From NCBI RefSeq assembly GCF_900188275.1, contig NZ_FZNY01000001.1, forward strand, positions 868,001-932,000: a DNA stretch of 64,000 nucleotides, written 5' to 3'. The notes beneath the pieces were generated by a model. That model had not been told where the DNA came from and did no database searches. It saw nothing but the letters and a program-made list of their open reading frames with translations. The stretch comes from Dokdonia pacifica. Lineage in GTDB: Bacteria; Bacteroidota; Bacteroidia; Flavobacteriales; Flavobacteriaceae. Positions 1,532 through 43,331 of this stretch are shown in pieces (the stretch's first letter is position 1; the number at the start of each line of letters is the position of its first letter). The position numbers and the translations under genes were made by a program.

Positions 1532-3826
1532 TTATATATCAACAAAAGCTTTTTCTAAAACACTAGCCCCTGTGCAGAATACAATAAGCTGGTCATCATC
1601 ATCCGTTTTTCTTTCTTTTTCTATTTGATTTGTAGGGTTTACAATAATTTGACGCTTTAATCCTTCCTCATCTAATAACTGTTTTAAAGCTTCTTCGTCT
1701 ATGATTTCTTGATCGTTAGTATTATGGTATACAACTCTTACCCCTATTAATAAAATACCTTGATTTCTTAATATAGGTATTAATTGATCATATGTTTTAT
1801 GTACTAATGATTTAAACTTTTGAAGTTTTAAATCTATTGTATAAAACTCATTGAATTCATTGTAATTAAGCACTTCATCTAACACTTTTGAAACTCCATG
1901 ATTTAAAAGGCTTTGTGTAATAATATTTTTACTATAAACGCTGCTATTTATTATCTCGTTTACATCAGATTTTTTCAGATCTTCTGTATACTTCTGATCA
2001 TTTAGTTCTGCAATTATATAAATGGAGTCTATATATTTATCTACTTCATGTTTTTCGTATTGTGACGTTGCTTCTTTGAGGTGACTTGTTTTTTCTAACA
2101 TTTTTTTTCTACAATATCGAGATATTGCTAAAGATCGTAGAAGTGTTTTTTGATCTGCTTCTTTCGTTGTATTCTCTGAGAGAATGACAACTGTATTGGC
2201 ATTTTCAATGTTGGCTTTTTTAAGAACTATCTCGTCTGTTGCATCACCAGCAACAAACTCAACATATCGCTTTTCTTGAAGTTTTTTTATTTCAGGATAA
2301 TCTTCTAGTATTTGCGAAGGGTTTTCTACAATGGCAATAATTTTACCAAGTTTCTTCTTATAAGAATTCTTAGCTCTAATAAGTTCCTCAAGGAATTTAG
2401 AAGTTGTACTTTTCCAACCTATAACTATAATATGATTTTTAGTATTGAATTGCATAAGTCCTTGTTTTCTTTTTTTATTGAATTTATAGATTATATACTC
2501 ACAAAAACCGATGATAATAGATCCTACTATTAATATATAAGAGCTAAAAGACAACATAAGTTGTCCTATATAAGATAAAGGGAAAATATTATTATTATTT
2601 CCTGTTAGATTGGTAATAATAATCCAAAAGTGTAGATCTGTTTTTGTTAAGTTTAGCACTTTGCTCTTGATTCCTAGTTTCTTATAAAAAGAAGATTCTG
2701 CCATAAGAAGTCCTTCTACGCTTATATAGTAGAGAATACAAATAACAAATATCCCGAGAATGATATGTTTATATCTTATCCAGATGATAAGCATATCTAT
2801 CTTAACTAGTTGTTTACGTAATATGTATAACACTATTCCTCCAATTAAAAAAATAGAAAAAAGGAGTGTTATTTTTGCAATATCCCATGTGGTATAATGC
2901 AGTAACTCTCCTGTAGTTGTACTCATAGGAATACCATATATAAAACCATGATTTTCTTTATTCTGGAAATAGATAACACTTCCTTTGATGCTCTCAGCAA
3001 TTACAGATTTATCACTTTTTGTAGCTTCAAATAAAGACTGCGATATTGCTTTTTTAGAAGACTCATGAATATCTTCAATACTTTTATCCAATCCTACAAA
3101 AAATGTCCAACTACCTATGGTCTTTTTTTTATTGTCAGACTCAATTGTAATAGGAGATACATTATTAATTTTACTTATTATGAGTTGGATTTCTGAATTT
3201 GACAAATTCACCAATCCTATCTTTTTATTTGTCTCTAAGTTTTGTATTGGAAGTGAAAATGTAATAAGTGCATCTATACTACCATCGATCAATGATTGAG
3301 ACAAAACAGGATACGTCCCTTCTACAATCTCTATATCATTAAGGTTAACATTTAATAACCTACAGATTTTTTCAAATATTTTAAATGAGTAACCTGTCTT
3401 ACTTGTAAATCCTATTTTCTTAAACTTTTTACAGCCTTGAACTAAGGAACTATCGATTGCTAATGATTTTTGTGTGTAAACCAATAACTTTTCTTCAAAT
3501 AGAGGAAGAATGATTTCTACATTTTTTATACCATTTACTTCATCATATATATTTTCTAAAAGTACATCACGTTGTACGATAGCAAAATCTGCAAATCTGT
3601 TATCTAGTTGTTGAATATTTTCTAAAGATCCAGAACTTTCAATATTTATAAACTGAAAATGAGGATAAATACTATCTAAAGCTTTCGTAATAAGAGCTCC
3701 TGTTTTATTATAGTTTCCACCCATACTTCCCGAAGAAAGAATGTATTGTTTTTTAGCAACTTGTGAGTTTACAAACTGAAAAAGACATAAGAAAAAAAGA
3801 AACGATATGTTTTTAAATCGACGCAA
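1532..3826 (-). CDS. TAXI-type periplasmic binding domain fused to a 2-TM ion-channel-like pore and a TrkA-N/RCK domain
   Basis: 764 residues. A signal peptide (about 1-21) is followed by a TAXI-family solute-binding domain (about 27-295) opening with the family-like ILSSGSMGGNYNKTG. Then come a TM helix (about 316-336), a second TM (352-372), a re-entrant pore-like segment (397-418) and a final TM (420-446). A cytoplasmic Rossmann RCK/TrkA-N domain starts near 464 (HIIVIGWKSTTSKFLEE, later EFVAGDATDEIVLKKA). The pore reads FWIIITNLTGNNNNIFP, placed like the TVGYGD filter and trailing Pro of K+ channels but with Asn replacing the filter residues. The nucleotide loop GWKSTTS lacks the classic GxGxxG, recalling CASTOR/POLLUX-type RCK domains. 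The architecture is that of a ligand-gated channel with a periplasmic sensor. It is the last gene of the tubulin/actin-like operon, 16 nt after the preceding lipoprotein gene. Ion selectivity and ligand are unknown. Confidence 0.75.
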   Translation of the reverse strand: MRRFKNISFLFFLCLFQFVNSQVAKKQYILSSGSMGGNYNKTGALITKALDSIYPHFQFINIESSGSLENIQQLDNRFADFAIVQRDVLLENIYDEVNGIKNVEIILPLFEEKLLVYTQKSLAIDSSLVQGCKKFKKIGFTSKTGYSFKIFEKICRLLNVNLNDIEIVEGTYPVLSQSLIDGSIDALITFSLPIQNLETNKKIGLVNLSNSEIQLIISKINNVSPITIESDNKKKTIGSWTFFVGLDKSIEDIHESSKKAISQSLFEATKSDKSVIAESIKGSVIYFQNKENHGFIYGIPMSTTTGELLHYTTWDIAKITLLFSIFLIGGIVLYILRKQLVKIDMLIIWIRYKHIILGIFVICILYYISVEGLLMAESSFYKKLGIKSKVLNLTKTDLHFWIIITNLTGNNNNIFPLSYIGQLMLSFSSYILIVGSIIIGFCEYIIYKFNKKRKQGLMQFNTKNHIIVIGWKSTTSKFLEELIRAKNSYKKKLGKIIAIVENPSQILEDYPEIKKLQEKRYVEFVAGDATDEIVLKKANIENANTVVILSENTTKEADQKTLLRSLAISRYCRKKMLEKTSHLKEATSQYEKHEVDKYIDSIYIIAELNDQKYTEDLKKSDVNEIINSSVYSKNIITQSLLNHGVSKVLDEVLNYNEFNEFYTIDLKLQKFKSLVHKTYDQLIPILRNQGILLIGVRVVYHNTNDQEIIDEEALKQLLDEEGLKRQIIVNPTNQIEKERKTDDDDQLIVFCTGASVLEKAFVDI

Positions 3827-3842
3827 TGGGTTTTAATTTAAA

Positions 3843-4250
3843 TTATAGTAAACTTTTAAAGGATGTCTCTAAAATAAAATTAGCCACTATAGGCCCATAT
3901 GTTTTAATCATATCATTACTTTTCTTATCTACTAACAACTCTACATTTTGCTGCCTATCACTATAAAGACGAACATATTTTACTTGTTCCCTAGTTATGC
4001 TTTGGGAATTATTATATGGTTTACTCGATATAAAAGGGATACTCCCTGTCTCATCTTCTATAATACTTATAGAATAATTCATAAATGATGCTGTCTCTAC
4101 AATAGAAATATTGGATATTATGAAATAATCTTTAGCTGCATATTTAGCAGGGTTATCTTTGATCATTTGTATAGTGGTCACTTCAGATCCACATGAAGTT
4201 AGTATTAGTGTAAAAAACAATGCGATCTTTAGGTAGTTTGGCGTTTTCAT
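3843..4250 (-). CDS. Small lipoprotein of the tubulin/actin-like operon
   Basis: 135 residues with a lipoprotein signal peptide ending in the lipobox LTSC (Cys20). The mature part has alternating beta-type segments (DYFIISNISIVETA, MNYSISIIEDETGSIPFIS), which resemble a small OB-like barrel, but I recognise no family. It sits 4 nt downstream of the vWA gene and 16 nt upstream of the channel fusion, so it is surely co-transcribed. It probably acts in the periplasm beside the channel's binding domain; that role is inferred from position only. Confidence 0.7.
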   Translation of the reverse strand: MKTPNYLKIALFFTLILTSCGSEVTTIQMIKDNPAKYAAKDYFIISNISIVETASFMNYSISIIEDETGSIPFISSKPYNNSQSITREQVKYVRLYSDRQQNVELLVDKKSNDMIKTYGPIVANFILETSFKSLL

Positions 4251-4254
4251 AGTC

Positions 4255-6111
4255 TTAGCTTTTAATTTTTATAATTTCATTTTCTAATCTATCCCTATAA
4301 TCTTTATAAGATATTATGTGTAAAAAAATAGAAAAGAGTATAACCGAGACTATTATTACAATTGAGAAAGTTTCTAATAATTCTTTGTTATATAATATTA
4401 GATCTGAAATAAGTATAGATAAATGACACCCGAGATATACTGTCATTAGCACATAAAACATCAAAGAAATCCAGAGAAAAGGTTTAGTTTTATTCTTTTT
4501 GATTTTAAGCCTTAACAAACAAATTAGATAATAAAAAAACAGATATAAAGAAGTAAAAGTAAATACAAGGTATAAGGCAAATAAGTATAAACATGCTGTT
4601 ACTGGTAAAACTGGTTTAAATAGAATAGGATGTCTAACTGCATAACTTGTATTTGGATAGCTATATTCTAAAAAAAAGTTTTTACTTTCTATTTCATCTA
4701 CTAAAAATGATATTTCATATATATCACTATTTGAGCCTTTTAACTTCCCTTTTTGATATTCATATAATTTTATTTCATCAGGAGAATTACTACTACTCTC
4801 TTTAGAAATAGTTATATAATCATAAGGTTTTATATAGTTTTTGGGTCTTATTCTGTTAGCAAATCCGACAACTAAATCCCTATCCCCATTTTGGCGTAGT
4901 ATCTGTACTTCCCCTTTATAATCAAATTTATAATCTTGTTTATTCCAAGAGTGATAGGTTATCAATGGTTGCGCAACTTTCGCATCAATGACTGTAGAAA
5001 ACATAGTATTTATCTCTTCATCTATAGCAAGTTGATTATCAAGATGTTCTTCATATTCAAAAAAATATAAATGATTAAAATTTCTTCTAAATGTTTCTTT
5101 AATAGCCTTAGATACATATTTAGATGAACTACTTGTATTAGAGTTATTGAATGAGATTAAATTTAATTGAGACACTCTATTTCTAATATTGTACCAAACA
5201 TTTTCTACATCTTTTACATTTTTATCTAAAAACGCTTCTTCATGATAAAAATCACTTAAGAGTATTATACTTGTATGGTCATATTTTTTCCCATAACCAT
5301 TATTCCTCGTAGTTCCATTACCAATAAATTTAGGTGCTTTAAGCTCTTTACCAAGCTCATAAAAATCTGTAAATCTATTATTTATAATTTTTTTATAATC
5401 ATCCGTATTATAAACATTTATTTTTTTTAGGCAATCTATTATTGCTTTACTTCTAGTACTATCATCATATTCATCATAATCAATCTTAAGGGCTTTTTCA
5501 ATATGATTTACCACCTTTACATTCTTTTCACTTCCTGTATAAATAAGTACTTCTATATGTGTTAGATTCCTTTTTTCATCACGTGTAAGCTGTTCTAATG
5601 CTGTAAGTAAAAATAAATCCTCAACTTTAATAGTACTAGTATCTATATGTTTCTCAAAATCATATATCTGATCATTTAATTTGTTAACTAGTCTCTGTTT
5701 TATTTTACTTTCTTTACTATCCTTAATAGATCCAGTTTTATCAAGAAGAATTGTAATTTTTCTAGTAGGATATTCTGTAATTATATTATCTTGAAAATCA
5801 ATGATGTTACTTGGATAAAGGTCTTTAACATTTATTCCATATTGCTCTACAGGGAAACGAAGAATATCCTCTATAGAAAACCAATCATATTGACGATCCA
5901 GATTGGCTGTATACTTATCGTAACTAGAAAAAACATCCGCATGTATTCCAAAAATAAAGGTTATAAGAGCAAAGGAAACAAGCAATATTTTACTAAAAAC
6001 TTTAGGTAAAATACTTTTTATAATTTGAAATGTAAATTTATTCTCAAAATAAAATAGTATTAAAACACTACTTATAAAAAATATCAATGTCCATAAAAAA
6101 TAAGTTTCCAT
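4255..6111 (-). CDS. vWA-like domain protein with flanking membrane segments
   Basis: 618 residues. Two N-terminal TM helices (about 5-22 and 43-58) precede a von Willebrand A-like domain starting at KITILLDKTGSIKDS (about 118-132). This provides a MIDAS-type D-x-T-x-S, with the later strand SIILLSDFYHEE (281-292) supplying the second acidic site. After a beta-rich region (about 375-480) come three C-terminal hydrophobic helices (about 500-525, 545-565, 577-600). The vWA domain lies between TM 2 and TM 3 and is likely periplasmic. It overlaps no neighbour but is spaced only 4 and 11 nt from them. vWA proteins are known partners of the bacterial tubulin-like family encoded in this operon. Family-level function is inferred. 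Confidence 0.75.
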   Translation of the reverse strand: METYFLWTLIFFISSVLILFYFENKFTFQIIKSILPKVFSKILLVSFALITFIFGIHADVFSSYDKYTANLDRQYDWFSIEDILRFPVEQYGINVKDLYPSNIIDFQDNIITEYPTRKITILLDKTGSIKDSKESKIKQRLVNKLNDQIYDFEKHIDTSTIKVEDLFLLTALEQLTRDEKRNLTHIEVLIYTGSEKNVKVVNHIEKALKIDYDEYDDSTRSKAIIDCLKKINVYNTDDYKKIINNRFTDFYELGKELKAPKFIGNGTTRNNGYGKKYDHTSIILLSDFYHEEAFLDKNVKDVENVWYNIRNRVSQLNLISFNNSNTSSSSKYVSKAIKETFRRNFNHLYFFEYEEHLDNQLAIDEEINTMFSTVIDAKVAQPLITYHSWNKQDYKFDYKGEVQILRQNGDRDLVVGFANRIRPKNYIKPYDYITISKESSSNSPDEIKLYEYQKGKLKGSNSDIYEISFLVDEIESKNFFLEYSYPNTSYAVRHPILFKPVLPVTACLYLFALYLVFTFTSLYLFFYYLICLLRLKIKKNKTKPFLWISLMFYVLMTVYLGCHLSILISDLILYNKELLETFSIVIIVSVILFSIFLHIISYKDYRDRLENEIIKIKS

Positions 6112-6122
6112 AAAAATTTATA

Positions 6123-6968
6123 TTAACTATCCCACCATTTCTTTAAATCATTTAGGGGTGATTTATTTTTATTTTTTGTACTTGATTCTAAAAGGTTTTT
6201 AAATTTTATAATAAAGGCTTCATCAAGACCAGAAAGGTTTTCTTGTACTTTTTCAAGTCCTTCCTGTAATTCTTTTTCCATGGTCCCTACTTTATCTGTA
6301 AGCAATTGTATTTGATTTTCTTTAAGTACTTTTTTAAGTCCGCTATTAGTTTCCTGAGTTACTTTATCTATAGTGTCTTTACTATTTTCTAAGGAGCTTG
6401 CGATTGTCTTCTCTCCGCTTATAGCAATTTGTTTGATTTTGCTACTCATACTTTCTTCTATAATTTGGAGGGCATCTTCTATCTCTTCTTTGATATCTTT
6501 TAGGTTTTTTTCATAATTAGAGATTACCATTTTTATTTTTCCATATACCTTTTCAAGTTCATCATTACTATTAACCAGTAATGGTTTTAAGTCATTATTT
6601 TTTGTAATATTTTCTTCTGTCCTTTCAAGAAGATTCGTTAGTAAATCATTATTTGTTTTGAGCAACTCTGTTAGAGATGTATAATCTGCTTTAATAAAAG
6701 CTGTTACTTCCTTAAATTTTGATTTATGATCACTAATTAAATGTGTATGCTCTTTTTCTAATGAGTCTAGTGAAGCGGTAGATAATGCTGTAAATGCAGT
6801 TACATTTTTCTCTAAGACCAGAAGTCCTTGAGAGAAAAAACTTTTCAACGTCTTAAGCTCTTTATTTAGATAATTAAAATTATTCTCTTTATATGTTTTT
6901 ATATATTTCCATAAAAGAAATAATACGATGATATGTGTTATAATTAGTAATACAACCAATATTTCCAT
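6123..6968 (-). CDS. Membrane-anchored coiled-coil protein
   Basis: 281 residues. A single N-terminal TM (about 2-20) is followed by a basic stretch and then about 230 residues of almost uninterrupted charged heptad-like helix rich in Lys, Glu, Leu and Ser, ending LNDLKKWWDS. Positive residues after the TM predict a cytoplasmic coiled coil. The helix resembles those in apolipoprotein-like or RmuC-like proteins, but the RmuC nuclease domain is absent. In this operon it could tether or organise the cytoplasmic actin- or tubulin-like filaments at the membrane (inference). The upstream gap of 71 nt holds a GCTTTCGCGAAAGC palindrome. Confidence 0.65.
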   Translation of the reverse strand: MEILVVLLIITHIIVLFLLWKYIKTYKENNFNYLNKELKTLKSFFSQGLLVLEKNVTAFTALSTASLDSLEKEHTHLISDHKSKFKEVTAFIKADYTSLTELLKTNNDLLTNLLERTEENITKNNDLKPLLVNSNDELEKVYGKIKMVISNYEKNLKDIKEEIEDALQIIEESMSSKIKQIAISGEKTIASSLENSKDTIDKVTQETNSGLKKVLKENQIQLLTDKVGTMEKELQEGLEKVQENLSGLDEAFIIKFKNLLESSTKNKNKSPLNDLKKWWDS

Positions 6969-7005
6969 AATATAATAGATTTACTATCGTGAGCATAAGC
7001 TATAC

Positions 7006-7019
7006 GCTTTCGCGAAAGC
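7006..7019. repeat. Palindrome GCTTTCGCGAAAGC, inside the long operon
   Basis: Exact 14-bp palindrome in the 71-nt gap between the coiled-coil gene and the 560-residue lipoprotein gene. It has no T-tract, so it need not terminate transcription. Confidence 0.9.
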
Positions 7020-7039
7020 ATATATACCCACATCATTTT

Positions 7040-8719
7040 TTATACAATTTTAATAGGGAGTTTATCTTTCACTCTCCACTTACCATCTTCTAAGGTCATT
7101 GTGCCACCTTGTGTTCCTATTTCTTCTATCCTAGTACCTGATGAATTAAAGTTTTCTGGTTTTAATTCACAAATAGGGAGTAACAACGAGTCATAACTCA
7201 TAATTCCAGCTTGCATCATCTGTTCCTGATCTAATAACAAATGGAAAGTAGCTTGTGTAACATTATCGGGAGAAAGCGATAGTTGCAAAGCACTATCACG
7301 AGCTTTTGTTTTCGATTTTTTTTCATCTGAGAGTGCTCCTCTCACGTCTGCAAATGGGAAATAAAAAACAAGATTTTCCTGTAACATCTTATGAAGATGC
7401 GTTTCTATACTTTGTTTAAAGTCGTTTATAATCCCAGAGAGCACTTCTTGTGTTGTTGTAAGCGGAAGTTCATTAATAAGGTTTTGTCTTAATAGCTGTA
7501 CTTTTGCTCGCACCTCAGACTCAGGGATAATTGCCGTGTTTATTGTAGGGAGAAAATCTTCTGTTGTAATACGAGCATGTATTTGTTGTATTGCAACATC
7601 TTGAGACACGCATTCTTGTATATCACTTTCTAATAATGCACGATGCTTCTGAATTTGTTTAGAAATATAGGAGGTTAATTCTTGTTCTGAAGTAAACCTT
7701 TCTGATCGAGCTGATGCTATAGTATCAGAAAGAAGTGTGTTGTAGGTAACTTCTTGATCTTCTACACAATTTCGATGATAGTTATGTAATAATGTTTTAT
7801 GCATCGTTTCATATGCATTTTCTATTTTATTCTTTACAATATGGTCACTTAACTTTGAGGGTTTGGGTTTAAAAACATCATCAGATTTGTTTTCTGGTTT
7901 CGTTTTAATTGAAGCTAATTTTTCTGTAGCTTTTGATAGTTTTGAATTTAACTGCCTTCTCTTTTTCTTATAGAATATATATTGTAGTATGTTAAGTATG
8001 ATACTAACTAAAAGTAGTATCAAAAAAAGTAAGCCTTGTTTTTTTATGAATTCAATTAATTTCTTGAATTTGTTTTTACCCTCATCCGGGATAGTTATCC
8101 CATTTTCTTCTTTTACTAGATTTTCAAGAGGCTTTTGATTTCCTTTTAAATCTAATTCTTCAATATCATTTTTTAGAGTATCAATATTTGCTTTAATTTC
8201 ATCATTTAGTTTTATATATAACTCATTAGAAATTCTCTCTTTTCCAACAATAGTATCAATATAAAAACGGCTTTTTAAGATATTATCTAATCCTTTATAA
8301 ATAGAATCTTTTGCTAAGTCTAAAAATAGCATGTCCCTGTATTTAACTAGAGATTTTACATATAATTTTACGTTTTTCTCACTTTCAGTTCCATTCTTAA
8401 GTTTTGAATTAAATTCATTTAAAGAAATAGATTTTAAAACAATTTTATTTTCTGGACTACTTTTATAAACACGATCTGTCAATACACGATCTATCATTTT
8501 GTAGCCTATCTTATCATAAAACTTTATGATAAGTTCTTTTTTCCTTTCAACAACACTAATACTATCTCTTTCAAATATTTCTTCTCCTAACTGTTCTATT
8601 TCTTCTTTATTGCTATCAATAGTATTCTCTATAGAGCCTTCTGGTTCTAATCTGTCACTACACCCCAATAACATTAAAAAACTTATAAAAGCTATGTGTA
8701 AACTATATGTATATTTCAT
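7040..8719 (-). CDS. Lipoprotein-type membrane protein with a cytoplasmic-type C-terminal domain
   Basis: 559 residues from the ATG at 8719; an in-frame GTG at 8722 overlaps the upstream stop and is the alternative start. The N-terminal signal ends in the lipobox LLGC (Cys at about 20). A charged helical region (about 25-220) is followed by a TM (about 229-249) with KKKRR right after it, predicting that everything beyond lies in the cytoplasm. The C-terminal 300 residues are helical and then beta-rich, ending EDGKWRVKDKLPIKIV. If the Cys is lipidated, the protein would span from a lipid anchor on the outer side through the periplasm into the cytoplasm, which is unusual. It is translationally coupled to the actin-like gene (stop and start touch) and may be its membrane receptor (inference). 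No family recognised. Confidence 0.65.
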   Translation of the reverse strand: MKYTYSLHIAFISFLMLLGCSDRLEPEGSIENTIDSNKEEIEQLGEEIFERDSISVVERKKELIIKFYDKIGYKMIDRVLTDRVYKSSPENKIVLKSISLNEFNSKLKNGTESEKNVKLYVKSLVKYRDMLFLDLAKDSIYKGLDNILKSRFYIDTIVGKERISNELYIKLNDEIKANIDTLKNDIEELDLKGNQKPLENLVKEENGITIPDEGKNKFKKLIEFIKKQGLLFLILLLVSIILNILQYIFYKKKRRQLNSKLSKATEKLASIKTKPENKSDDVFKPKPSKLSDHIVKNKIENAYETMHKTLLHNYHRNCVEDQEVTYNTLLSDTIASARSERFTSEQELTSYISKQIQKHRALLESDIQECVSQDVAIQQIHARITTEDFLPTINTAIIPESEVRAKVQLLRQNLINELPLTTTQEVLSGIINDFKQSIETHLHKMLQENLVFYFPFADVRGALSDEKKSKTKARDSALQLSLSPDNVTQATFHLLLDQEQMMQAGIMSYDSLLLPICELKPENFNSSGTRIEEIGTQGGTMTLEDGKWRVKDKLPIKIV

Positions 8720-8721
8720 CA

Positions 8722-11700
8722 CTATGCTCCTTTAAATTCATTAATAGCATCAGACACAATAATTTTGGAAAATGCATAGAGATATGCTTTTATCGCCTCA
8801 AAGAAAAAGGTATCATTAATGATAGATTCTTGTTCTACTTCAATCTTATGATTAATGACTTCTCGTATGGTATTTTTTATTTTTGATGCATTTGTAAAAA
8901 ATACTTTGAGTTTATCTGTATTATAGGATTTATCTACTCCAAAATTCTTTACAAAATCTGCCTGATACCATAGTGAGTCAAAGAAATATTCAAAAAAGGA
9001 AACGATGTTTTCTGAAACCTCATCAATTTTTGTATTATCCTCTTTAATAAAATCTGCATATTTCAAATTTCGTTTACTTTCTGCATCTGTATCTTTAATA
9101 AGGTCTTCTTTCGTTCCTATAGAGATATAATAATTTTCAGTATCAAGCGTAGGGTCTAGTTTTATTTTTTCGATTCCTTGTATCCCTCCTATTGCTGTCG
9201 ATTCTTTTGGATTGCTTAAGATCTGCAACTCTATTTTGTGGAGTTCTTCTAGGTCAAATACTTCTTTAGTAAGTAATTGTACAACTTTAGACATTCCTTG
9301 GGATCTATTCAAGTTTTTGTCTCCATTTGTGATTTCTAGGAGTTTAGCTCCGTTACCACTTACTCCTATATATGATGGAAGTTTATCTACCTCACTCATC
9401 TTTAAAATCTGCATAGAATGATAAAAAATAGCGCAGTTGTGAATCAAGAAAAGGAGTTTAAACTCACTATCTAATTTCAGGTTTTTAGTAAATGAACTAT
9501 AATTAAAGAAATAGCTTACTAAGTCTGTAGACTGTAACCCTTTTGATTCTTTAATATATTTCATTGTTTCTATTTTTTTCACACTACTCCCAAAATGCTT
9601 AAGCATCTGGTCTTCATATTTTGATACAAATCCGTTATCAAAAGGATTATGACTACCATAGGATTCAAAAAGACTATTCCCAGCAAATCGATACGATGTT
9701 GTTAACGTAGGCTTATTGTTTCTAAAGACAATAAGGTCTGTTGTCCCGCCTCCAATGTCCAGATTCATATACACCTCTCCTGTTCCAAATGTTCTATCGT
9801 AGCTATAATAAGGTGCCCAAGATTCAGTCACAGATACTAGTTTTGAAAGATTATCTGATTTACTGTAATAATTCATATATAATTCGTTCCAAATTGTATT
9901 AAATACTGTCATTTGCTTATTCCCCATACTTAAAGGTTTAAACCAAATTACATTTGCTGCTTTAGGCTTATATCCTTCACTAAGCAACTTATTCCTTCCC
10001 ATCCAAGCAAGTTGCTCTATAAAACCTCTTAGTTTATTATAAGCACCTTGATTTTTACTGTCTGTAACTCCCCATTTAATATTAGAATGTGAAAAATCAT
10101 ACTCTCTTCTTAGTACATTATGACCAAAAGCAAAAGGAATATTTGCATTTGAAAGTATATTAATACTATTTACCTCTTCTGCATTAGTATCATTATCTAC
10201 ATTAATTACAGAGCGTATAGGAAACTTAAACAGAGAGTTATCACCTACCATACTTGGTAAGAACTCCGCATCTTGTACTACTCCATAAATAGGGTTCACT
10301 TCATTAAGGTCATTCTTTTTATAATCTTCTCCTTCAGATGACCGTTCATTAAGTAATACGAAGTGTGGTTGCATAGAACTTCCTTTCCCTTCATAATTTG
10401 ATAAATTTTCTACCTGATTAGCTGTTTTTAAAGCCACAAAACTATTACTTGTTCCTATATCAAATGCAATCGATGTATCTCCGTCTATAAGCTGCCTAGG
10501 TTCTCCCATTAAAGGAAGTAGGCAACCATCTAATGTTGTATTTTCATCTAGATTTTTTACGGTTACTGTTATTCCATCAAACGTGATATCACGATTACTA
10601 TTAAATGTTAACTCTCCTTGTTCGTTGTAAGTAATATTTGTGATATCTAAATATGTAGAAATGGAAGGGTACCCTTCATCCTTTCGAGTTCTAGAATGTG
10701 AATGGGCTTCTACTTTTGCTATCGTAGGTATTGTATTTTCTTCTCTAAAAAACTGATAGTCTATTTCTTCTCCTTTCAAATGAAAAGAAAGTGCTTTGTA
10801 TCTGTCATTAAATACAGGGTCTGAAACTTTAAAAAATGGATAGATTCCAAAGGCAAGAGAAGATTTAACTACCGCTCCATAATCTGGGTTATCTATCGTT
10901 TCTGGAGCGACAAAATCATAGGTTCGTTCAAACTTTATAGTACCTCTACCATTATCTCCCTGCACAGGAATATCTAATGTTATTAATATGGCTCCTAGGT
11001 TCAATTTTTCAACAGTGATCTGTTTTTTGAGGTCTTCTATAGTAAAATAATTAAAATAGGTTGGAGTCACTGGTAATATGATATTTTTTACAGGCCCTTG
11101 AGGTAACCAGTACTTATCTATATTTACATTATACTCTAACTGGATAAGGTGTTTGGAAAGAACATCATCACGAGTAATCCAAGGATACTCTATAACAGAT
11201 TCTGGCAATTTCCGATCTTCTATGGAAGCTGTAGATCTAACGATACAATTTTCTGGAAATGTATTATCCAGATATGTCCATCTTTTCTTAGTAACTCCTT
11301 CTAATAAAGCAAGTGGAGGACGTTCTAATCGTTTAGATGTTTTAATAACAAAGTCACTATTTTTAGCTATTTGTTGTTCATTTATACTATTAAATTTTTC
11401 ACATAAAAAAGGTACTCTTCCACTTAAAAAGCTAATTTCTTCATTATTAATCTCAAGGATTCTATAATCTCTTACTAACTCTGTAGCATTACCTCTTTCT
11501 AATTCCCCTACTAGTTTTCTTACGTCATCACTAGCTGTTATTGTGTTGTTATTTTTTATATACGTTTGTAATTCCTTAAATGATTGCGCCACTTCTGGCT
11601 CTGTAGCAAAAAGCACATTCATATACTTTTGAAAATCCTCTTCTCTTTCATACAATGCCTTATTAGTAGAAAAGAATTTTCTATTCTGCTTATCGGATAT

Positions 11701-12270
11701 AGTAACTAATACTGAATCTCCCGTTGTAAAAAACCCTGTATACGGAGAAGTGCCTGCGACTATTGTATTATCAATGTAAATCAAAATACACTCATCAAAA
11801 GCATTTGAAATTCCCTGATTTACAAAACGCCTATCATTGTTATAATTTGTGATAAAAATTTTCAATGTTTCAGCAAAAGTCTTCAATCCTACATTTTTAT
11901 CTTTTATTAATGCTGTAAGTTCTTCCTTTTTCCATAGCTGGATCTCTATTCTATCTTGAAGTTTTAACGTCTCATAGCTAAATAAAATCTCAAATACATC
12001 TAAACACTGTGAAATGTATTTATGATAACTTGTTTTACCTCTAAGTACTGAAGAATCATCAACAAAAGCTTTATTGATAAATGTAAAAGAAGTTTCAAAA
12101 AGATGCATTTGTGCAAATGGAGATGGGATAGAGGTAACAGGAACTTCTATCTTACTTATATTATCCTTTATCTCTTGTATCTTATTTTCATCATAAGGAT
12201 TATTAGGATAGGCATTCCAACCATTATTTGCAATATTTTGTTCAGGTATAAGGCTTAATTTATGTGACAT
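8722..12270 (-). CDS. Very large actin/Hsp70-fold ATPase
   Basis: 1182 residues. The C-terminal half carries the actin/Hsp70 ATPase signature set: phosphate-1 loop IAFDIGTSNSFVA (about 601-613), phosphate-2 MNLDIGGGTTDLIVF (about 835-849) and an adenosine-type motif YIGVSGNGAKLLEI (967-980). The N-terminal 600 residues have no recognised domain and are rich in beta-strand patterns; Hsp70 proteins normally begin with the ATPase domain. There is no signal peptide or TM, so it is cytoplasmic. It follows the tubulin-like gene by 44 nt and touches the lipoprotein gene downstream. It is likely a nucleotide-driven switch or filament acting with the tubulin-like GTPase. Whether it polymerises cannot be told from sequence. 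Confidence 0.8.
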   Translation of the reverse strand: MSHKLSLIPEQNIANNGWNAYPNNPYDENKIQEIKDNISKIEVPVTSIPSPFAQMHLFETSFTFINKAFVDDSSVLRGKTSYHKYISQCLDVFEILFSYETLKLQDRIEIQLWKKEELTALIKDKNVGLKTFAETLKIFITNYNNDRRFVNQGISNAFDECILIYIDNTIVAGTSPYTGFFTTGDSVLVTISDKQNRKFFSTNKALYEREEDFQKYMNVLFATEPEVAQSFKELQTYIKNNNTITASDDVRKLVGELERGNATELVRDYRILEINNEEISFLSGRVPFLCEKFNSINEQQIAKNSDFVIKTSKRLERPPLALLEGVTKKRWTYLDNTFPENCIVRSTASIEDRKLPESVIEYPWITRDDVLSKHLIQLEYNVNIDKYWLPQGPVKNIILPVTPTYFNYFTIEDLKKQITVEKLNLGAILITLDIPVQGDNGRGTIKFERTYDFVAPETIDNPDYGAVVKSSLAFGIYPFFKVSDPVFNDRYKALSFHLKGEEIDYQFFREENTIPTIAKVEAHSHSRTRKDEGYPSISTYLDITNITYNEQGELTFNSNRDITFDGITVTVKNLDENTTLDGCLLPLMGEPRQLIDGDTSIAFDIGTSNSFVALKTANQVENLSNYEGKGSSMQPHFVLLNERSSEGEDYKKNDLNEVNPIYGVVQDAEFLPSMVGDNSLFKFPIRSVINVDNDTNAEEVNSINILSNANIPFAFGHNVLRREYDFSHSNIKWGVTDSKNQGAYNKLRGFIEQLAWMGRNKLLSEGYKPKAANVIWFKPLSMGNKQMTVFNTIWNELYMNYYSKSDNLSKLVSVTESWAPYYSYDRTFGTGEVYMNLDIGGGTTDLIVFRNNKPTLTTSYRFAGNSLFESYGSHNPFDNGFVSKYEDQMLKHFGSSVKKIETMKYIKESKGLQSTDLVSYFFNYSSFTKNLKLDSEFKLLFLIHNCAIFYHSMQILKMSEVDKLPSYIGVSGNGAKLLEITNGDKNLNRSQGMSKVVQLLTKEVFDLEELHKIELQILSNPKESTAIGGIQGIEKIKLDPTLDTENYYISIGTKEDLIKDTDAESKRNLKYADFIKEDNTKIDEVSENIVSFFEYFFDSLWYQADFVKNFGVDKSYNTDKLKVFFTNASKIKNTIREVINHKIEVEQESIINDTFFFEAIKAYLYAFSKIIVSDAINEFKGA

Positions 12271-12314
12271 GTCTGGTTGTGTTAAAGTCTTTACATTAAA
12301 TATTCATAAAACAA

Positions 12315-13850
12315 TTAAAGAACAAAGCGTTTTGCTATAATTTCAGCTATACCTTTATTCAAGAGTATATGTACATCTCTATCCATATTTCCATGTTGGA
12401 GATCTATGATATCACTAGCTAATTTTGAAAACTCTTCATCATAGTTGATGCTATCTTTACTGAAAAATGATTGCTTTTTGTTTGCAGGCATTCCAGTAAT
12501 AAGTGTAAAAAGTTTTTCATTAGTGATATGTGTCTTAACAGGTAGTAAACCATCTACGTCTTTTCCTAACTCGTCTCTATTATTTATAATAGATAGATCA
12601 AATGGTAAAAACTTACGATCATGTCTTTCCTGAGATGTCTCATATAACCATCTGTAGTAATAAAGCTTAGTAAATTTTTCTAAATGCTTAAAGAAATTTT
12701 GAGAATCATAATTACTAGGAAGTTTAAGTTCGTTACGCCATGCTAATTTTTCATCTCGCAACGCTACTTTCATAAAATTAGATACATATACATTAAAGTA
12801 ATGAAAGTGAAGAAGGCTATGTTTTAGCCCATCATTTTTAAGATGTTTAAGATCTATGCTACCTACATCGGTATCAAGACCATATTCAAAGAACTTAGAG
12901 GGGCTTCCTAAATCTTCTTTTGTATTTGCTGTTGCATCATAATCCATAAAATCGATGATGGAAGATGCCGCTGTAAGCTCTATAAAATTAGATGGATTTT
13001 TTTGCTCAATACCTCCATCAAAATTTTCATAATTACTTTGTCTTGTATCCCCTACATAGTACATCGCATTTATAAGCGGACTTAGATTTCTATTGTAATA
13101 AGAAAGTGCGGCTTTTGTTTTGGTAATAAACGTACTTGAATTAATCGCGCTTTCTCCTGTATTAAATTTTTCTACATCTACTTGAAAATAGGGTAATACA
13201 GAAACCCCACCTATAATAGCGCTATTAATAAAAGCGCCATTATTTAATGGTGTATTTGGATCTCTAAATACATTCATTAATAATGGAAAACCAGCGGCTC
13301 CTGTACCCCCAAAAATGGAGCTAATCACAAAAATCCGATCATTCTGACTAAAGTCTTGCGTAAACTCTTTAAATTCTGGAGATTCTACTACGTTTTTTAA
13401 AACAACACTTCCCACATTAGGGTTTCCTAAAAATCCTTTTTCTAATGGCATATCTTTGTTCTCTGTACTATATAGTAAATCAAAAAGTCCTTTTGTATTT
13501 TTAAAGCCTTTTGCATTAAGGGTATTATAACTCACCATATCTCTAAGCGTCCCGTAGTCTGTGCCGCTAATATTAAGCTCTTTAGGAGGCATAATTTTAG
13601 TCCTAAAAAAACACCCTTGATCTTGATCATCAGAAATTCCTTTATACACCGTATCATGAATATTATTATACCCTTTTATAATATTTCGACACTTTTCTAC
13701 ATCTCCATTATTGATATCTGTATCAATGATCATTGGAATGATCTTTTCTGTATTCGTCTTAATACCTGAGGCTAATAACATTGCTAAGGAGCTTAATACT
13801 CTCGAACCTGTTCCGCCAATGGCAAACAGATATAATTTTGGTTTTGACAT
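12315..13850 (-). CDS. Tubulin/FtsZ-superfamily GTPase (Tubulin_2-like)
   Basis: 511 residues. The N-terminus YLFAIGGTGSRVL (7-18) is a tubulin-type first nucleotide loop, followed by an acidic strand IIDTDINNG (41-49). The family signature appears as SIFGGTGAAG (178-187), matching the tubulin/FtsZ GGGTGS/TG loop with Ala substitutions. Length and sequence differ from cell-division FtsZ (no conserved C-terminal tail) and fit the divergent tubulin-like family that Makarova and Koonin (2010) linked to vWA proteins and predicted membrane remodelling. The gene sits 4 nt after a small membrane protein gene in an operon with two vWA-like proteins, which fits that prediction. A cytoplasmic GTPase, possibly filament forming. 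Confidence 0.85.
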   Translation of the reverse strand: MSKPKLYLFAIGGTGSRVLSSLAMLLASGIKTNTEKIIPMIIDTDINNGDVEKCRNIIKGYNNIHDTVYKGISDDQDQGCFFRTKIMPPKELNISGTDYGTLRDMVSYNTLNAKGFKNTKGLFDLLYSTENKDMPLEKGFLGNPNVGSVVLKNVVESPEFKEFTQDFSQNDRIFVISSIFGGTGAAGFPLLMNVFRDPNTPLNNGAFINSAIIGGVSVLPYFQVDVEKFNTGESAINSSTFITKTKAALSYYNRNLSPLINAMYYVGDTRQSNYENFDGGIEQKNPSNFIELTAASSIIDFMDYDATANTKEDLGSPSKFFEYGLDTDVGSIDLKHLKNDGLKHSLLHFHYFNVYVSNFMKVALRDEKLAWRNELKLPSNYDSQNFFKHLEKFTKLYYYRWLYETSQERHDRKFLPFDLSIINNRDELGKDVDGLLPVKTHITNEKLFTLITGMPANKKQSFFSKDSINYDEEFSKLASDIIDLQHGNMDRDVHILLNKGIAEIIAKRFVL

Positions 13851-13854
13851 CGTA

Positions 13855-14241
13855 TTAAAATTTTACAGGTATATATTTTGGAAAAATTGAGAAACGCTTA
13901 AAAATGAGAGAGAATATGAAATAGAATACAAAAGCGTATATAGTATTGATCAAAGTAAAAAGCCATATCTCAAAAAAAATAGTGTCAAAAGCTAGATCAA
14001 AAACAGCAAAACCTTCTATAAATAATGTGCTTATAAAGACAACAATCATATTAAGTAAACCAAAGAGAAACCACTTTCCAACAGTAGCATATTTCATATT
14101 TTTCCTGCCGAAATACATATAGTATAATAGCGTAAAAAATAGGGTAGTAATGAGTAGTATTAAAAAGCCTATGAGATACCCTTTTTCATCCCAAACGGAC
14201 CAATTATTTAAATCTTCAAAGAAAAAGTAAAATGCTTCCAT
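13855..14241 (-). CDS. Small integral membrane protein of the operon
   Basis: 128 residues with three clear hydrophobic helices (about 20-42, 55-77, 92-115) separated by short charged loops, and a basic C-terminus. No family recognised. It is packed between the vWA-like lipoprotein (4 nt) and the tubulin-like gene (4 nt), so co-expression is certain. A membrane anchor or adaptor for the tubulin-like protein is a reasonable guess from position. Confidence 0.65.
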   Translation of the reverse strand: MEAFYFFFEDLNNWSVWDEKGYLIGFLILLITTLFFTLLYYMYFGRKNMKYATVGKWFLFGLLNMIVVFISTLFIEGFAVFDLAFDTIFFEIWLFTLINTIYAFVFYFIFSLIFKRFSIFPKYIPVKF

Positions 14242-14245
14242 AGTG

Positions 14246-15544
14246 TTATTTCTGTTGTTTTGTTAGTGTAAATTCTAGTAGTGGTTTTTTTTCTGTATAC
14301 GCTTTCGCGAAAGCGTCTAAAATAAATTTAAAAGCAAACGTCTTGTGTTCTAATATCTTAGTTGAAACACCTAGATCATCATCAAGATTGGTATCTTCTA
14401 TCCAAGTAGGTATTCTATTATGAACACTTATTTTAATTTCGGTAGTAGTGGGATCAAAATCTGATAATGTAGGTTGAATAAAATGAGTATATCCCTCTTG
14501 ATTAATCTGTGATTTATTTGGAATATTTTCAGAAAGTAGCATTGTTGCATCCTTAATTTGTATATCTATTGTATTTTGAATATAGTCAGGGCTTACCAAA
14601 TAGTTAGTAGGAGAAATTATGATTTGATTTAATGGGTTTTCTTGTTTGTGAAGACGAAGTCCTATGGTAAATTGTGCTGGACGCCTTACATCTATTTCTT
14701 TAATAATAAGGGTTCCTTTTTCTGAATTAATAGCGATTTTCCCTGTTTTAGGATGATCTAATAAGGCAAAATCTACTTCTTTAGGAGTTAAATTATAAGT
14801 ATGCGCTTCTGCATACCCTTTAATAATTCCTTTTGACACTAAATCACTGACTCGATTTTTATCTCCAAACACCCAAATGTAAAAAGGACGATTCTTTAAA
14901 ATTTCCCCTTGATAGGGTCTGTTTGAAATAACATTACCTCCAGTGTTCTTTCTATCATAATAATAATCTCCATTGAAATCACTCGTATATTTAAAAACAG
15001 CAACACCCATGCTTTCATTATATACTAACTGTTGATATATTTCACTAGTTACTAAAGAACCCTCTGCCATTGTATCTGTCTTTCCAAGATCTACAATACA
15101 GTCTGATACAAGAATGCTAATATCTGTAGCTTTTGTAGAGGATATTACATCACTAAAAACACGTTGTAACTTTGACGACCTACCATTAAGTAATGATCCT
15201 CCTCTAAGTTGATCAAAAAATACCGTTTTAGATTGTTTGTATTTACGAGATACATCTGAGATCGTGTGGAGTGTTGTAGGGATTTCATAATCTCTTTCTA
15301 AATCTGTAATCAAAAAAGGAACAATATCTTTTAAGGTATAATTACCTGAAACATTAGAGTTAACATACCCCTTCATGCTCATTGAGGTTTCTAAATAGAA
15401 ATTGATGTTTTCTACTTGAAGAGTATCTATGCTACTATTACTTTGTGATCTTTCAAGTACATACATTTGAGGATCACTACAAGCAGTAATCACAAAAAAG
15501 AATAAAAAAACAATAGATGTGTAATTATACTTATAGCGGTTCAT
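14246..15544 (-). CDS. vWA-like lipoprotein with altered MIDAS
   Basis: 432 residues from the ATG at 15544, just past the YidD stop; an in-frame ATG at 15559 would overlap yidD by 14 nt. Lipobox ITAC. The vWA-like fold is suggested by INFYLETSMSMKGY, where the expected D-x-S-x-S reads E-T-S-M-S, and by DISILVSDCIVDLG further on. The middle and C-terminus are beta-rich. Near the C-terminus the gene contains the palindrome GCTTTCGCGAAAGC (14301-14314), read on the coding strand as DAFAKAY. Probably periplasmic and lipid anchored, the second vWA-like member of the operon. The Glu for Asp change may weaken metal binding. Domain call is by motif only. Confidence 0.65.
   Translation of the reverse strand: MNRYKYNYTSIVFLFFFVITACSDPQMYVLERSQSNSSIDTLQVENINFYLETSMSMKGYVNSNVSGNYTLKDIVPFLITDLERDYEIPTTLHTISDVSRKYKQSKTVFFDQLRGGSLLNGRSSKLQRVFSDVISSTKATDISILVSDCIVDLGKTDTMAEGSLVTSEIYQQLVYNESMGVAVFKYTSDFNGDYYYDRKNTGGNVISNRPYQGEILKNRPFYIWVFGDKNRVSDLVSKGIIKGYAEAHTYNLTPKEVDFALLDHPKTGKIAINSEKGTLIIKEIDVRRPAQFTIGLRLHKQENPLNQIIISPTNYLVSPDYIQNTIDIQIKDATMLLSENIPNKSQINQEGYTHFIQPTLSDFDPTTTEIKISVHNRIPTWIEDTNLDDDLGVSTKILEHKTFAFKFILDAFAKAYTEKKPLLEFTLTKQQK
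14301..14314. repeat. Palindrome GCTTTCGCGAAAGC inside a coding region (frame AFAKA)
   Basis: Exact palindrome within the vWA-like lipoprotein gene, encoding AFAKA on the coding (minus) strand. Confidence 0.9.
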
Positions 15545-15545
15545 T

Positions 15546-15836
15546 TTATAATGGTTCATGGTTATTTAATAAGCGTGGATGAATCTCTTCTTCTTGAAAT
15601 ACAATATTATTTGAAGACACTAATATTTTTTGAGAAGGCACTTCTACTATTGTATAGCCAGATCTACAATGTTTGTAGCGATACAGGAATGCTCTTATGC
15701 CAGCAAGTAATCCCTTTGTTTTTGTGATATTATATACATAATGAGAGCAACTCTCTTTAAAAAGACATCGCTTCCTTCTTGAAGCTGGAATTAATTTCCA
15801 GTACAAACGAATTATTATGAGCAATAAGTGTCTCAT
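15546..15836 (-). CDS. YidD-like membrane protein insertion factor paralogue
   Basis: 96 residues with the YidD pattern: an amphipathic N-terminal helix (LLLIIIRLYWKLIPASRRKR), CLFKESCSHYVYN with paired Cys and the S-H-Y that replaces the usual S-x-Y, then KGLLAGIRAFLYRYKHCRSGY. The usual length is 70-90, with a short divergent tail here. The housekeeping yidD normally lies with rnpA and yidC; this copy heads the tubulin/actin operon, so it may be a dedicated paralogue that helps insert the operon's membrane proteins. It overlaps the DUF4177-like gene upstream by 4 nt. Confidence 0.8.
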   Translation of the reverse strand: MRHLLLIIIRLYWKLIPASRRKRCLFKESCSHYVYNITKTKGLLAGIRAFLYRYKHCRSGYTIVEVPSQKILVSSNNIVFQEEEIHPRLLNNHEPL

Positions 15837-16042
15837 TTTTTTTCAAAAACAACGAGACCTACATGTGTCACCGTATCTGGCGTAGCACCAATACCAAAAC
15901 AGCCTTCTTTTCCTGGCGTAAGCTTATCGCTGTACTGATGATTTTTATACTCCCATCCATCTATTACATTTTGATTAATAATGGTTTGCAATTCTTTATC
16001 TGGCGATGCAGATCTAAATAGAGGTACTACTTTATATTCCAT
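15833..16042 (-). CDS. DUF4177-like small protein, first gene of the tubulin/actin operon
   Basis: 69 residues: MEYKVVPLF, a helix, DGWEYKNHQ and a final strand VTHVGLVVFEKK. This matches the short DUF4177 pattern (a sheet with the GWE motif). Cytoplasmic, function unknown. It starts 27 nt downstream of the -7 element described at 16070-16114 and its stop overlaps the yidD-like start, so it is the promoter-proximal gene of the 14.5-kb operon. Confidence 0.65.
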   Translation of the reverse strand: MEYKVVPLFRSASPDKELQTIINQNVIDGWEYKNHQYSDKLTPGKEGCFGIGATPDTVTHVGLVVFEKK

Positions 16043-16069
16043 AATTATATGTTGATTTTAATGTTTTAC

Positions 16070-16114
16070 CAAATCTAAAAACATTAACAATCAACACGTT
16101 ACGGGTTTCCGTAA
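16070..16114 (-). promoter_or_regulatory. Promoter of the tubulin/actin operon with TTACGG-N4-CCGTAA operator
   Basis: On the minus strand the palindrome TTACGGAAACCCGTAA (16114-16099) is followed after exactly 21 nt by TAGATTTG (16077-16070), a perfect match to the Bacteroidetes -7 consensus TAnnTTTG. The palindrome covers where the -33 element would lie, as expected for an activator site. Identical spacing occurs at four other promoters in the window. Confidence 0.75.
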
Positions 16115-16181
16115 ATACAAAAAGTATTTTAAATTAAGGAGCTATAAAAAGAATCCCATTTTTAAGAAAGCTCCATAAATA

Positions 16182-16499
16182 CTAGTCCTCCCATCCACAT
16201 AAAGTCCTACCTAGTTCTTTTGCTTTAGACATAGAAACTTCAAAAATATCTGTAGAGCATGGCTTTAATCCTCTACAAGATTTTTTGTAATGATATCGCT
16301 TACTTCTAGGCCCTTTACAGATATAAACCTCTTTACTAGTAGTAAAATTACTTTGTAAATACTCATATGAATGTTTATTTGAAACATCTAGTCTTGCATC
16401 TTTTTTATAAATATCTACTTCAAAAGATGTCAGGAAATACATAGAAACAAAACAGCCCGCTATAAACGAAAATCCTATGAGTACTAGATTCTTTAACAT
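16182..16499 (-). CDS. Membrane-anchored protein with Cys/His C-terminal motif
   Basis: 105 residues. An N-terminal TM (about 4-25) is followed by a linker and a compact C-terminal motif YICKGPRSKRYHYKKSC, then RGLKPC and, near the end, GRTLCGWED. The four Cys and nearby His fit a small zinc-binding or disulfide-linked fold found at the C-terminus of many bacterial nuclease-associated and phage proteins (Ada-like metal site). No enzyme is visible. It is the last gene of the small-protein operon, 3 nt after the TPR gene. Confidence 0.6.
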   Translation of the reverse strand: MLKNLVLIGFSFIAGCFVSMYFLTSFEVDIYKKDARLDVSNKHSYEYLQSNFTTSKEVYICKGPRSKRYHYKKSCRGLKPCSTDIFEVSMSKAKELGRTLCGWED

Positions 16500-16502
16500 C
16501 TC

Positions 16503-17480: not shown

Positions 17481-17486
17481 ATTAAA

Positions 17487-21134: not shown

Positions 21135-21150
21135 ATTTGAGGAAAATTAA

Positions 21151-39359: not shown

Positions 39360-39360
39360 T

Positions 39361-43274: not shown

Positions 43275-43331
43275 TTTAACAAAGGGTAGGAGTTTTAATA
43301 GGTAAATTGTTCTATTAGTGAACGTATAGTT

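Follow-up and report, generated by a model that had tools for sequence, protein, structure and literature searches.

A tubulin-like protein and a giant actin/Hsp70-fold ATPase as constant partners in a patchily distributed bacterial operon with a predicted envelope role

Introduction

When a tubulin-type and an actin-type nucleoside triphosphatase (NTPase) are encoded in one bacterial operon, which of its genes belong together, and what might their products do? This question was raised by eleven open reading frames (ORFs), g01 to g11 (Table 1), at positions 1532–16042 of a 64,000-nucleotide (nt) stretch of the Dokdonia pacifica genome (contig NZ_FZNY01000001.1, positions 868,001 to 932,000), the whole of which is referred to here as the window. 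A previous reading of the DNA letters (the sequence-only reading) had described the genes as closely spaced and on one strand, which is correct, as all lie on the minus strand with intergenic gaps of −14 to +71 nt. It had identified among their products a tubulin-like protein (g05), a 1182-residue ATPase (g06), two membrane proteins resembling von Willebrand factor type A (vWA) proteins, a YidD paralog and a TAXI-channel-RCK fusion, and had treated the ATPase, YidD and the channel as equally special. It further suggested a membrane machine that might couple an outside signal to filament dynamics.

The tubulin family in question, FtsZl1, was linked in 2010 to vWA proteins, a P-loop GTPase, kinases and OmpA, and the available text of that report predicted a role in membrane remodeling (Makarova and Koonin 2010, PMC2875224). 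The available text of a 2015 article repeated the link between FtsZl1 and vWA proteins (PMC5898192), and that of a 2023 paper set Tubulin_2 proteins aside as divergent (PMC9871819).

Loci and Genomes Compared

Thirty-two distinct loci were compared: the window, L010, L018–L024, L012–L017, L071–L082, L086, L087, L089, L111 and L112. Two duplicates (L011 and L090) were excluded from this count. The window, L010 and L018–L024 are the nine loci of the window clade. Genome samples comprised 249 genomes of the host family, the host's own included, and 395 of the phylum; in the phylum search for the ATPase, scores were computed for just the top candidates per genome, and the weakest matches fall outside its listing.

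Recurrence of the Tubulin–ATPase Pair

The tubulin gene was present in nine of the 249 family genomes, and in all nine the ATPase and vWA-like genes adjoined it. In the phylum sample, the tubulin profile matched 13 of 395 genomes and the ATPase stood alongside in 12 of the 13, three of these by weak matches; weak ATPase matches lay beside weak tubulin matches in G423, G544 and G521. Genome G624 had a broken tubulin gene and no ATPase match. Its locus (L079, 9250–12067), scored piecewise, was a decayed copy that also contained fragmentary ZorA/ZorB-type genes.

The ATPase profile gave matches in 148 of the 395 genomes. The nine strong matches (eight near full length, one cut by a contig end) all adjoined a tubulin gene, and among the matches listed for these genomes there was no strong one away from tubulin; the remainder listed were short and weak, mostly over the phosphate-2 stretch. 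A Prevotella replicon also carried the set. On two cyanobacterial plasmids, a protein with four transmembrane (TM) segments, the tubulin and the ATPase were encoded in the same order, with ATPase profile matches at expectation values (E) of 5.7e-13 and 5.7e-20, and a vWA-like gene preceded the block on both plasmids, once on the other strand. Trees of the tubulin and the ATPase from 15 loci shared 6 of 12 splits and had strongly correlated patristic distances (r = 0.97; 0 of 2000 permutations as high).

Because of this recurrence across genomes, a chance association is unlikely. The giant ATPase is the constant partner of the tubulin, part of the core nearly everywhere tested and not a local extra. 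The linkage and conserved order that the sequence-only reading had named as support were found across the family, the phylum and the cyanobacterial plasmids; the outcome that it had named as refuting, scattered homologs or proteins with neither a tubulin nor an actin fold, was not what these comparisons returned.

Assignment of g05 to the FtsZl1/Tubulin_2 Family

The g05 protein has the tubulin signatures GGTGSR at residue 12 and FGGTGAAG at residue 180, and the GGxGx and FGGTGA/S motifs were retained in all 15 aligned members. It matched Pfam Tubulin_2 (PF13809) with 21.2 bits (E = 1.9e-4), under the 27-bit cut-off, and Pfam Tubulin at 0.0047. Two relatives, found by the g05 profile at 1.4e-47 (L111) and 5.5e-32 (L082), scored over the Tubulin_2 cut-off (40.8 bits for L111; 28.4 bits for L082, with its neighbors in frame). 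Since these homologous proteins exceed the cut-off, g05 is assigned with them to the FtsZl1/Tubulin_2 family, and the earlier claim of a tubulin-like protein with a GGTGAAG stretch is supported by both motifs and relatives. A profile search of the PDB with alignment A1 gave chance-level rows only (the best being IpaD, 0.017; a TUBULIN/FTSZ entry, 0.27), and one with alignment A3 found no match. GTP binding and polymerization are predicted for g05.

Fold of the Giant ATPase g06

The g06 protein consists of an N-terminal region of ~590 amino acids (aa) with no assigned fold, followed by a C-terminal ATPase in which the nucleotide motifs occur in order: phosphate-1 at residue 604, phosphate-2 at 838 and adenosine at 972. 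All three actin/Hsp70 motifs were recognizable in 15 of 15 aligned rows. The AlphaFold model, made with nine sequences, had a mean predicted local distance difference test score (pLDDT) of 47.4, with values mostly of 70–89 in residues 940–1020. Foldseek returned 365 PDB matches to the model at E ≤ 1e-3. The titles of 47 of the 50 listed named MreB/Mbl, Hsp70-type proteins, actin, Ppx/GppA, EutJ or their complexes, and those of the other three (8r2n, 9y6s and 9cac) were uninformative. Together, the three motifs and the model indicate that g06 has the actin/Hsp70 (ASKHA) fold, as had been claimed for it.

Assignment to a subfamily was less clear. The score of g06 against FtsA (0.005) was below the cut-off, as were those of the cyanobacterial ATPase of L112 against FtsA (4.1e-5) and MreB (9.9e-4), and the best PDB match to alignment A2 was MreB at 0.019. 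SrfB, considered as a relative of g06, was dropped, there being no SrfB model in the Pfam or NCBIfam results at E ≤ 1.

Envelope Partners of the NTPases

A profile of g03 matched a gene beside the tubulin in 30 of the 32 loci, the window counted. The exceptions were L080, which has an unmatched lipoprotein at this position, and L082, which is truncated by the contig start. Three g03 residues were invariant in 22 aligned rows (C27 of the lipobox, S59 and D153) and E57 and S61 were nearly so, giving the pattern E57xS59xS61 plus D153; a cyanobacterial homolog has the DGSGS motif within VDGSGSMLGY. No Pfam vWA model matched the 22 members of the g03 set at E ≤ 0.1, or three further relatives that were scanned. 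The g03 model (pLDDT 76.7) had no Foldseek match at E ≤ 1e-3 and its lowest-E rows were chance-like. The rows of highest probability (0.51) included one named vWFA domain (LapA) and, among others, TFIIH chains, which we take to be vWA domains. Because there was no Pfam vWA match and the fold match was weak, we label g03 as vWA-like only. The vWA labels of the sequence-only reading are thus the weaker ones; that of the second protein, g09, has its sole basis in a DKTGS motif.

Of the 31 loci other than the window, all but L079 (30 loci) have, in the position of g04 before the tubulin gene, an ORF of 110–175 aa with three or four TM segments. The g07 and g08 genes were present throughout the window clade, and weak g07 profile matches also occurred in L014 and L071. 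We considered whether g08 is a relic of ZorA. Its tail matched the PADLOC ZorA2 model at 3e-7, and the ZorA-like profile described below picked up the g08 proteins of L019 (4e-4) and L022 (3e-3). As the profile comparison gave a probability of 2.5, these matches were read as coiled-coil similarity and the candidate was rejected.

A ZorA/ZorB-Type Motor Pair in Relatives of the Operon

Eleven of the 32 loci (L013–L017, L072–L075, L089 and, as fragments, L079) had a ZorA/ZorB-type pair downstream of the ATPase gene, usually after one or two genes. The MotA-like protein (about 490–580 aa) combines a membrane region of MotA/ExbB type with a long tail; the MotB-like protein (about 204–264 aa) has the stretch FFWxSYxDLMTSLFF and an OmpA-like end. 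The MotA-like protein occurred alone in L012, which is cut by the locus end, and in L081 (weak, 1e-6). Neither protein was found in 17 loci, save for weak MotA-side matches of coiled-coil type in L019, L022 and L112 (0.002). Two loci that are cut off, L078 and L087, were left outside this tally; in L087, no motor genes were seen after the operon.

Most of the motor loci were used to build the profiles, and for this reason it is the independent support for a motor that counts. The ZorA-like set (A8) was made excluding L077 (SH3 and YkuD proteins) and L081 (too divergent), and the ZorB-like set (A9) excluding L077. In Pfam, MotA_ExbB matched 4 of 13 proteins (best 6.2e-5), OmpA 4 of 11 (2.2e-5) and MotB_plug 3 of 11 (0.0024). 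In the PDB, the MotB-like set matched 8vvn (2.6e-11) and 8qyd (1.1e-6), and the best match of the MotA-like set was 8vvi (2.5e-6). The available text of the structural report describes 8VVI as a type II and 8VVN as a type I ZorAB (PMC11890865). PADLOC identified the MotB-like protein of L014 as ZorB1 (2.8e-9) and gave no match for its ZorA-like protein. In addition, the ZorB-type profile matched strongly in five of the 395 phylum genomes, all of them tubulin genomes with the match within the operon region, and weakly in 11 other genomes, none with tubulin. No match to the PADLOC models of ZorC, ZorD or ZorE was found among ten of the eleven window genes and ten selected proteins from other loci.

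Other modules followed the tubulin–ATPase pair in two lineages. L080 has a TerD gene (2.8e-68) and, by eye, two further TerD-like genes (2172–4063); L082 has an OmpA-domain gene (6e-17) and, by eye, one TerD-like gene (7016–8455). These genes may connect the operon with stress systems of the Ter type.

Accessory Genes and Upstream Regulators

The features of the window operon and its upstream region are listed in Table 1.

Table 1. Genes of the window operon (g01–g11) and features upstream of it.
Feature	Positions	Strand	Basis
g01, DUF4177-like, 69 aa, first operon gene	15832..16042	-	sequence reading, Pfam
g02, YidD paralog, 96 aa	15546..15836	-	TIGR00278
g03, vWA-like lipoprotein, 437 aa, core	14246..15559	-	motif residues, model
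g04, 3-TM protein, 128 aa, core	13855..14241	-	position recurrent across loci
g05, FtsZl1/Tubulin_2-type tubulin-like protein, 511 aa, core	12315..13850	-	motifs, Pfam, relatives
g06, giant actin/Hsp70-fold ATPase, 1182 aa, core	8722..12270	-	motifs, Foldseek
g07, lipoprotein/single TM/coiled coil with conserved C-terminal domain, 560 aa	7040..8722	-	clade recurrence
g08, N-terminal TM and long coiled coil, 281 aa	6123..6968	-	clade recurrence
g09, 618 aa, five TM segments and a DKTGS motif, candidate second vWA protein, accessory	4255..6111	-	motif alone
g10, small lipoprotein, 135 aa, accessory	3843..4250	-	3/9 clade loci
g11, TAXI periplasmic domain, TM channel-like region and RCK, 764 aa, accessory	1532..3826	-	Pfam
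105-aa protein, TPR protein, related protein with no Pfam hit, HSDR_N-domain protein; upstream	16182..19443	-	Pfam
Possible regulators: TPR histidine kinase with LuxR-type response regulator	20487..22842	-	Pfam

In the nine clade loci, g03 to g08 were present in all, g01 and g02 in eight, g10 in three (the window, L010 and L018), g11 in two (the window and L018) and g09 in the window alone. The ATPase, YidD and the channel are thus not equally special, with the ATPase belonging to the core, YidD to eight of nine clade loci and TAXI-RCK to two. We conclude that YidD, the second vWA-like protein and the TAXI-channel-RCK protein are clade- or strain-level accessories. The genes of L018 share 82–100% identity with their window counterparts, and g09 is missing there between g08 and g10 (L018 16884–18110); given this near identity, g09 was recently gained or lost.

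The g01 protein matched Pfam DUF4177 at 1.2e-4, below the cut-off, and g02 matched TIGR00278 at 2.2e-16. The sequence-only reading was right to call g02 a YidD paralog, as it is the second YidD of the genome (33.5 bits, versus 98.4 bits for the other copy). Neither a g01-like nor a YidD gene was seen among the non-clade loci compared. The claim of a TAXI-channel-RCK protein was confirmed for its two end domains. In Pfam, g11 matched NMT1_3 (TAXI; 9.8e-13) and Slo-like_RCK (4.8e-13), both above cut-off, and TrkA_N (2.7e-10); against the NCBIfam model TRAP_TAXI it scored 47.2 bits, under the 84.35-bit cut-off. A potassium selectivity filter of the TVGYG type was not visible in g11 by pattern scan or by reading of the TM region. 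TAXI-RCK was absent from the non-clade loci compared, and L010 and L021 have a different RCK protein at the end of the operon.

Between the operon and the regulator pair, the HSDR_N gene (Pfam HSDR_N, 1.7e-15) and the 105-aa gene each adjoin the operon in eight of nine clade loci, and relatives of the TPR-type upstream protein lie beside it in three of nine. The regulator pair had Pfam matches to TPR and, below the cut-offs, to HATPase_c, Response_reg and GerE. A kinase/regulator pair was found upstream in seven of nine clade loci and four of six distant loci of the same family (L012 and L017 have it on the opposite strand). It was not found in 15 further loci, a few of them with short upstream DNA; L111 and L112 were outside this search. 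The host genome has four kinases similar to the upstream kinase at 1e-10, itself counted, and because of this a recurrence of the pair by chance seems unlikely.

A single promoter-like site (16072–16044) lies directly before g01. Promoter-like sites were not in excess (100 found, 107.3 expected from shuffles), and ten terminator-like sites compared with 6.2 expected. Elsewhere in the window we noted by eye a 1103-aa protein of many short NGKxxGxxxxYYxNG-type repeats (27607–30918), three adjoining photolyase/cryptochrome-family-like genes (36332–40659), and a sigma factor, an anti-sigma factor and a TonB-dependent receptor in a row (42759–46533).

Spread and Genomic Context

The distribution of the operon is patchy, with copies also on plasmids and in three IMG/VR contigs, from which came one ATPase and three tubulin matches. 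A search of phage records with the tubulin found no match. One IMG/VR locus (L087, 8210–17215) contains the operon, one gene and then minus-strand genes that by eye resemble those for phage tails or baseplates. Among ten chosen locus proteins, PADLOC found a CARF-type match in L072 (4.5e-21; a 748-aa neighbor, 15254–17500) and weak matches in L077, which is not enough to claim defense islands. In G206, a genome of the same genus with no tubulin match, the homolog of the left flank was 37% identical and the right flank gene had no match at 1e-20; as the flank genes are so poorly matched there, an insertion site was not demonstrable.

Discussion

With moderate confidence, we favor the interpretation that the operon encodes an envelope-anchored, nucleotide-driven NTPase assembly with a role in stress or phage conflict. 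Its constant part would be the vWA-like lipoprotein, the small protein with three or four TM segments, the FtsZl1-type tubulin and the giant actin/Hsp70-fold ATPase. The two NTPases may interact and form a nucleotide-controlled assembly at the inner face of the inner membrane, a pairing that would resemble FtsA (actin fold) holding FtsZ (tubulin fold). Anchoring of this assembly would fall to the TM and coiled-coil proteins, and the vWA-like lipoprotein would read or grip something in the periplasm or outer membrane. Output or power modules would be exchangeable by lineage, with an ion-driven, OmpA-tipped motor of ZorA/ZorB type in many lineages, genes for OmpA and TerD in two, and g07/g08 plus YidD in the window clade, with the TPR-kinase/response-regulator pair upstream; the window would add TAXI-channel-RCK. 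We speculate that the likeliest role is local restructuring or depolarizing of the inner membrane upon envelope stress or phage attack.

The sequence-only reading had also called a tubulin and an actin fold in one operon unusual, and this was overstated. The ftsA and ftsZ genes of the divisome are an adjacent pair for an actin-fold and a tubulin-fold protein, which are likewise membrane-tethered. The window operon differs from that pair in that g06 is far larger, with an N-terminal half of no assigned fold, g05 is of the divergent Tubulin_2 type, and the locus is not a division cluster. A second precedent is provided by GTPase conflict systems, which combine tubulin homologs with an HSP70 chaperone according to the overview in the available text (Kaur et al. 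2020, PMC7159879), and because of these the pairing is less novel. Two NTPases in one operon are therefore less unusual than claimed.

The operon shares with the FtsZl1–vWA operons its tubulin family, a partner of candidate vWA type, membrane and OmpA-type neighbors and a patchy occurrence in diverse bacteria; unlike here, where it is the constant partner, no actin-fold ATPase is named in the available text (PMC2875224). The g06-type ATPase may be among the unnamed associated families in the supplements of that study. No diverged P-loop GTPase or kinase partner, a frequent but not universal feature of FtsZl1 operons, was found by Pfam in the eleven genes or by NCBIfam in ten of them. The remodeling proposal in the available text of the same study drew on FtsZl1, vWA, OmpA and many TM proteins (PMC2875224), and the operon core is likewise membrane-heavy. 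The operon could accordingly serve housekeeping membrane remodeling or vesicle formation, in which tubulin and actin-fold filaments would bend or pinch the inner membrane with no role in stress or conflict. We regard this as possible but doubtful, as the patchy spread (9/249 and 13/395 genomes), the plasmids and the IMG/VR contigs are odd for a housekeeping function and the ZorAB-type and TerD modules suggest a response.

The GTPase conflict systems bear on a further alternative, a chaperone-type switch. In this, g06 would be a chaperone and the tubulin a regulatory GTPase, together setting the threshold for effector release as in the DO-GTPase systems, and no filaments would form. As far as the available text goes, the DO-GTPase GAP1-N2 systems have tubulin, vWA and HSP70 components; tubulin occurs with two vWA proteins, of which one is multi-TM, in a theme that is called non-overlapping with the HSP70 theme (PMC7159879). 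In the window operon, by comparison, the two NTPase genes are adjacent, and Pfam found no FNIII domain. Hsp70 domains were among the closest folds to g06, and a client-binding region could lie in its N-terminal 590 aa. However, by Pfam the eleven window genes have no P-loop GTPase, GrpE or DnaJ domain, and MreB, FtsA and Hsp70 score about equally as relatives of g06. Pfam also gave no DO-GTPase or GAP1 match (ten genes at E ≤ 1, g01 at E ≤ 0.01), the presence of models for these domains in the library being unconfirmed. We consider such a switch unlikely. A solute-sensing or ion-homeostasis device, with TAXI binding a periplasmic solute to gate an RCK cation channel and the NTPases only organizing it, is highly improbable: the TAXI and RCK domains are real, RCK proteins also end two other operons, and a reviewer in 2010 pointed out that in Polaromonas an FtsZl1 gene has a TRAP periplasmic protein as neighbor (in the available text of PMC2875224), but TAXI-RCK occurs in two of nine clade loci and is missing from the remaining loci compared, and g11 has no visible potassium filter motif.

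Several points weigh against the envelope-anchored stress or conflict assembly that we favor, the strongest being that its function is a prediction, that this copy lacks the motor and that filament formation by either NTPase is assumed. What is observed comprises the genes and their order, the folds or motifs, the co-inheritance and the recurrence; the function of every member is predicted. The classical tubulin T7 motif was not found by eye in the conserved g05 columns. The target-normalized template-modeling scores of g06 were about 0.25–0.54, its model is poor outside the C-terminal part, and its fold would suit an FtsA-like filament former and an Hsp70-like chaperone alike. The vWA identity of g03, for which residues and one weak fold match speak, is weak. 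PADLOC found no convincing defense gene among ten of the eleven window genes, the matches being those of g08 to ZorA and LeoB models and of g05 to PbeC at 0.02. As to the motor, the ZorA-side match is in part one of coiled coil: the 8vvi row has 23.8 bits of composition bias, coiled-coil proteins that are not motors score up to 5.8e-5, and 8qyk, a second ZorA entry, gave only 0.048 with the MotA-like set. The ZorA/ZorB pair is absent from the window operon and the ZorB-type profile was unmatched in the window's genome; the motor is therefore not direct evidence for this copy.

Relatives of the operon resemble Zorya in carrying a MotA-type and MotB-type pair whose best PDB matches are ZorAB structures. 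They differ from it in that their cytoplasmic partners are the tubulin and actin-fold NTPases, and the window copy lacks the pair. A tentative extension, which we put no higher than doubtful, is that these NTPases are cytomotive, obligate partners, joined mechanically in many lineages to an ion-driven rotary motor of ZorAB type that reaches the cell wall, and that the complex is used against phage or envelope damage. Motor-coupled vWA proteins were proposed in 2025, in the available text of that article (PMC12204202), and neither "tubulin" nor "von Willebrand" appears in a 2025 survey of MotAB proteins (PMC12505986). In titles and abstract openings of openly licensed PMC articles (in part the best 20 of about 200), we found no pairing of an FtsZl1-type tubulin with an actin-fold ATPase in the absence of a GTPase, or with a ZorAB-type motor.

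Conclusions

The observation made in the window is real, recurrent and more general than first described, with the ATPase as core and the channel and YidD as trimmings. New here is the ZorA/ZorB-type motor pair as an unexpected partner in relatives of the operon. If the extended proposal were true, a widespread, unrecognized bacterial machine would unite three force-producing principles within one envelope-spanning complex. Such a coupling, if real, would connect cytoskeletal NTPases with envelope motors driven by protons and with the modular design of Zorya-type defense. For the FtsZl1 tubulins, to which the available parts of the literature assign no tested function since their description in 2010, the actin-fold partner, the neighbor with three or four TM segments and the motor link in relatives offer concrete candidate binding partners and a testable hypothesis.

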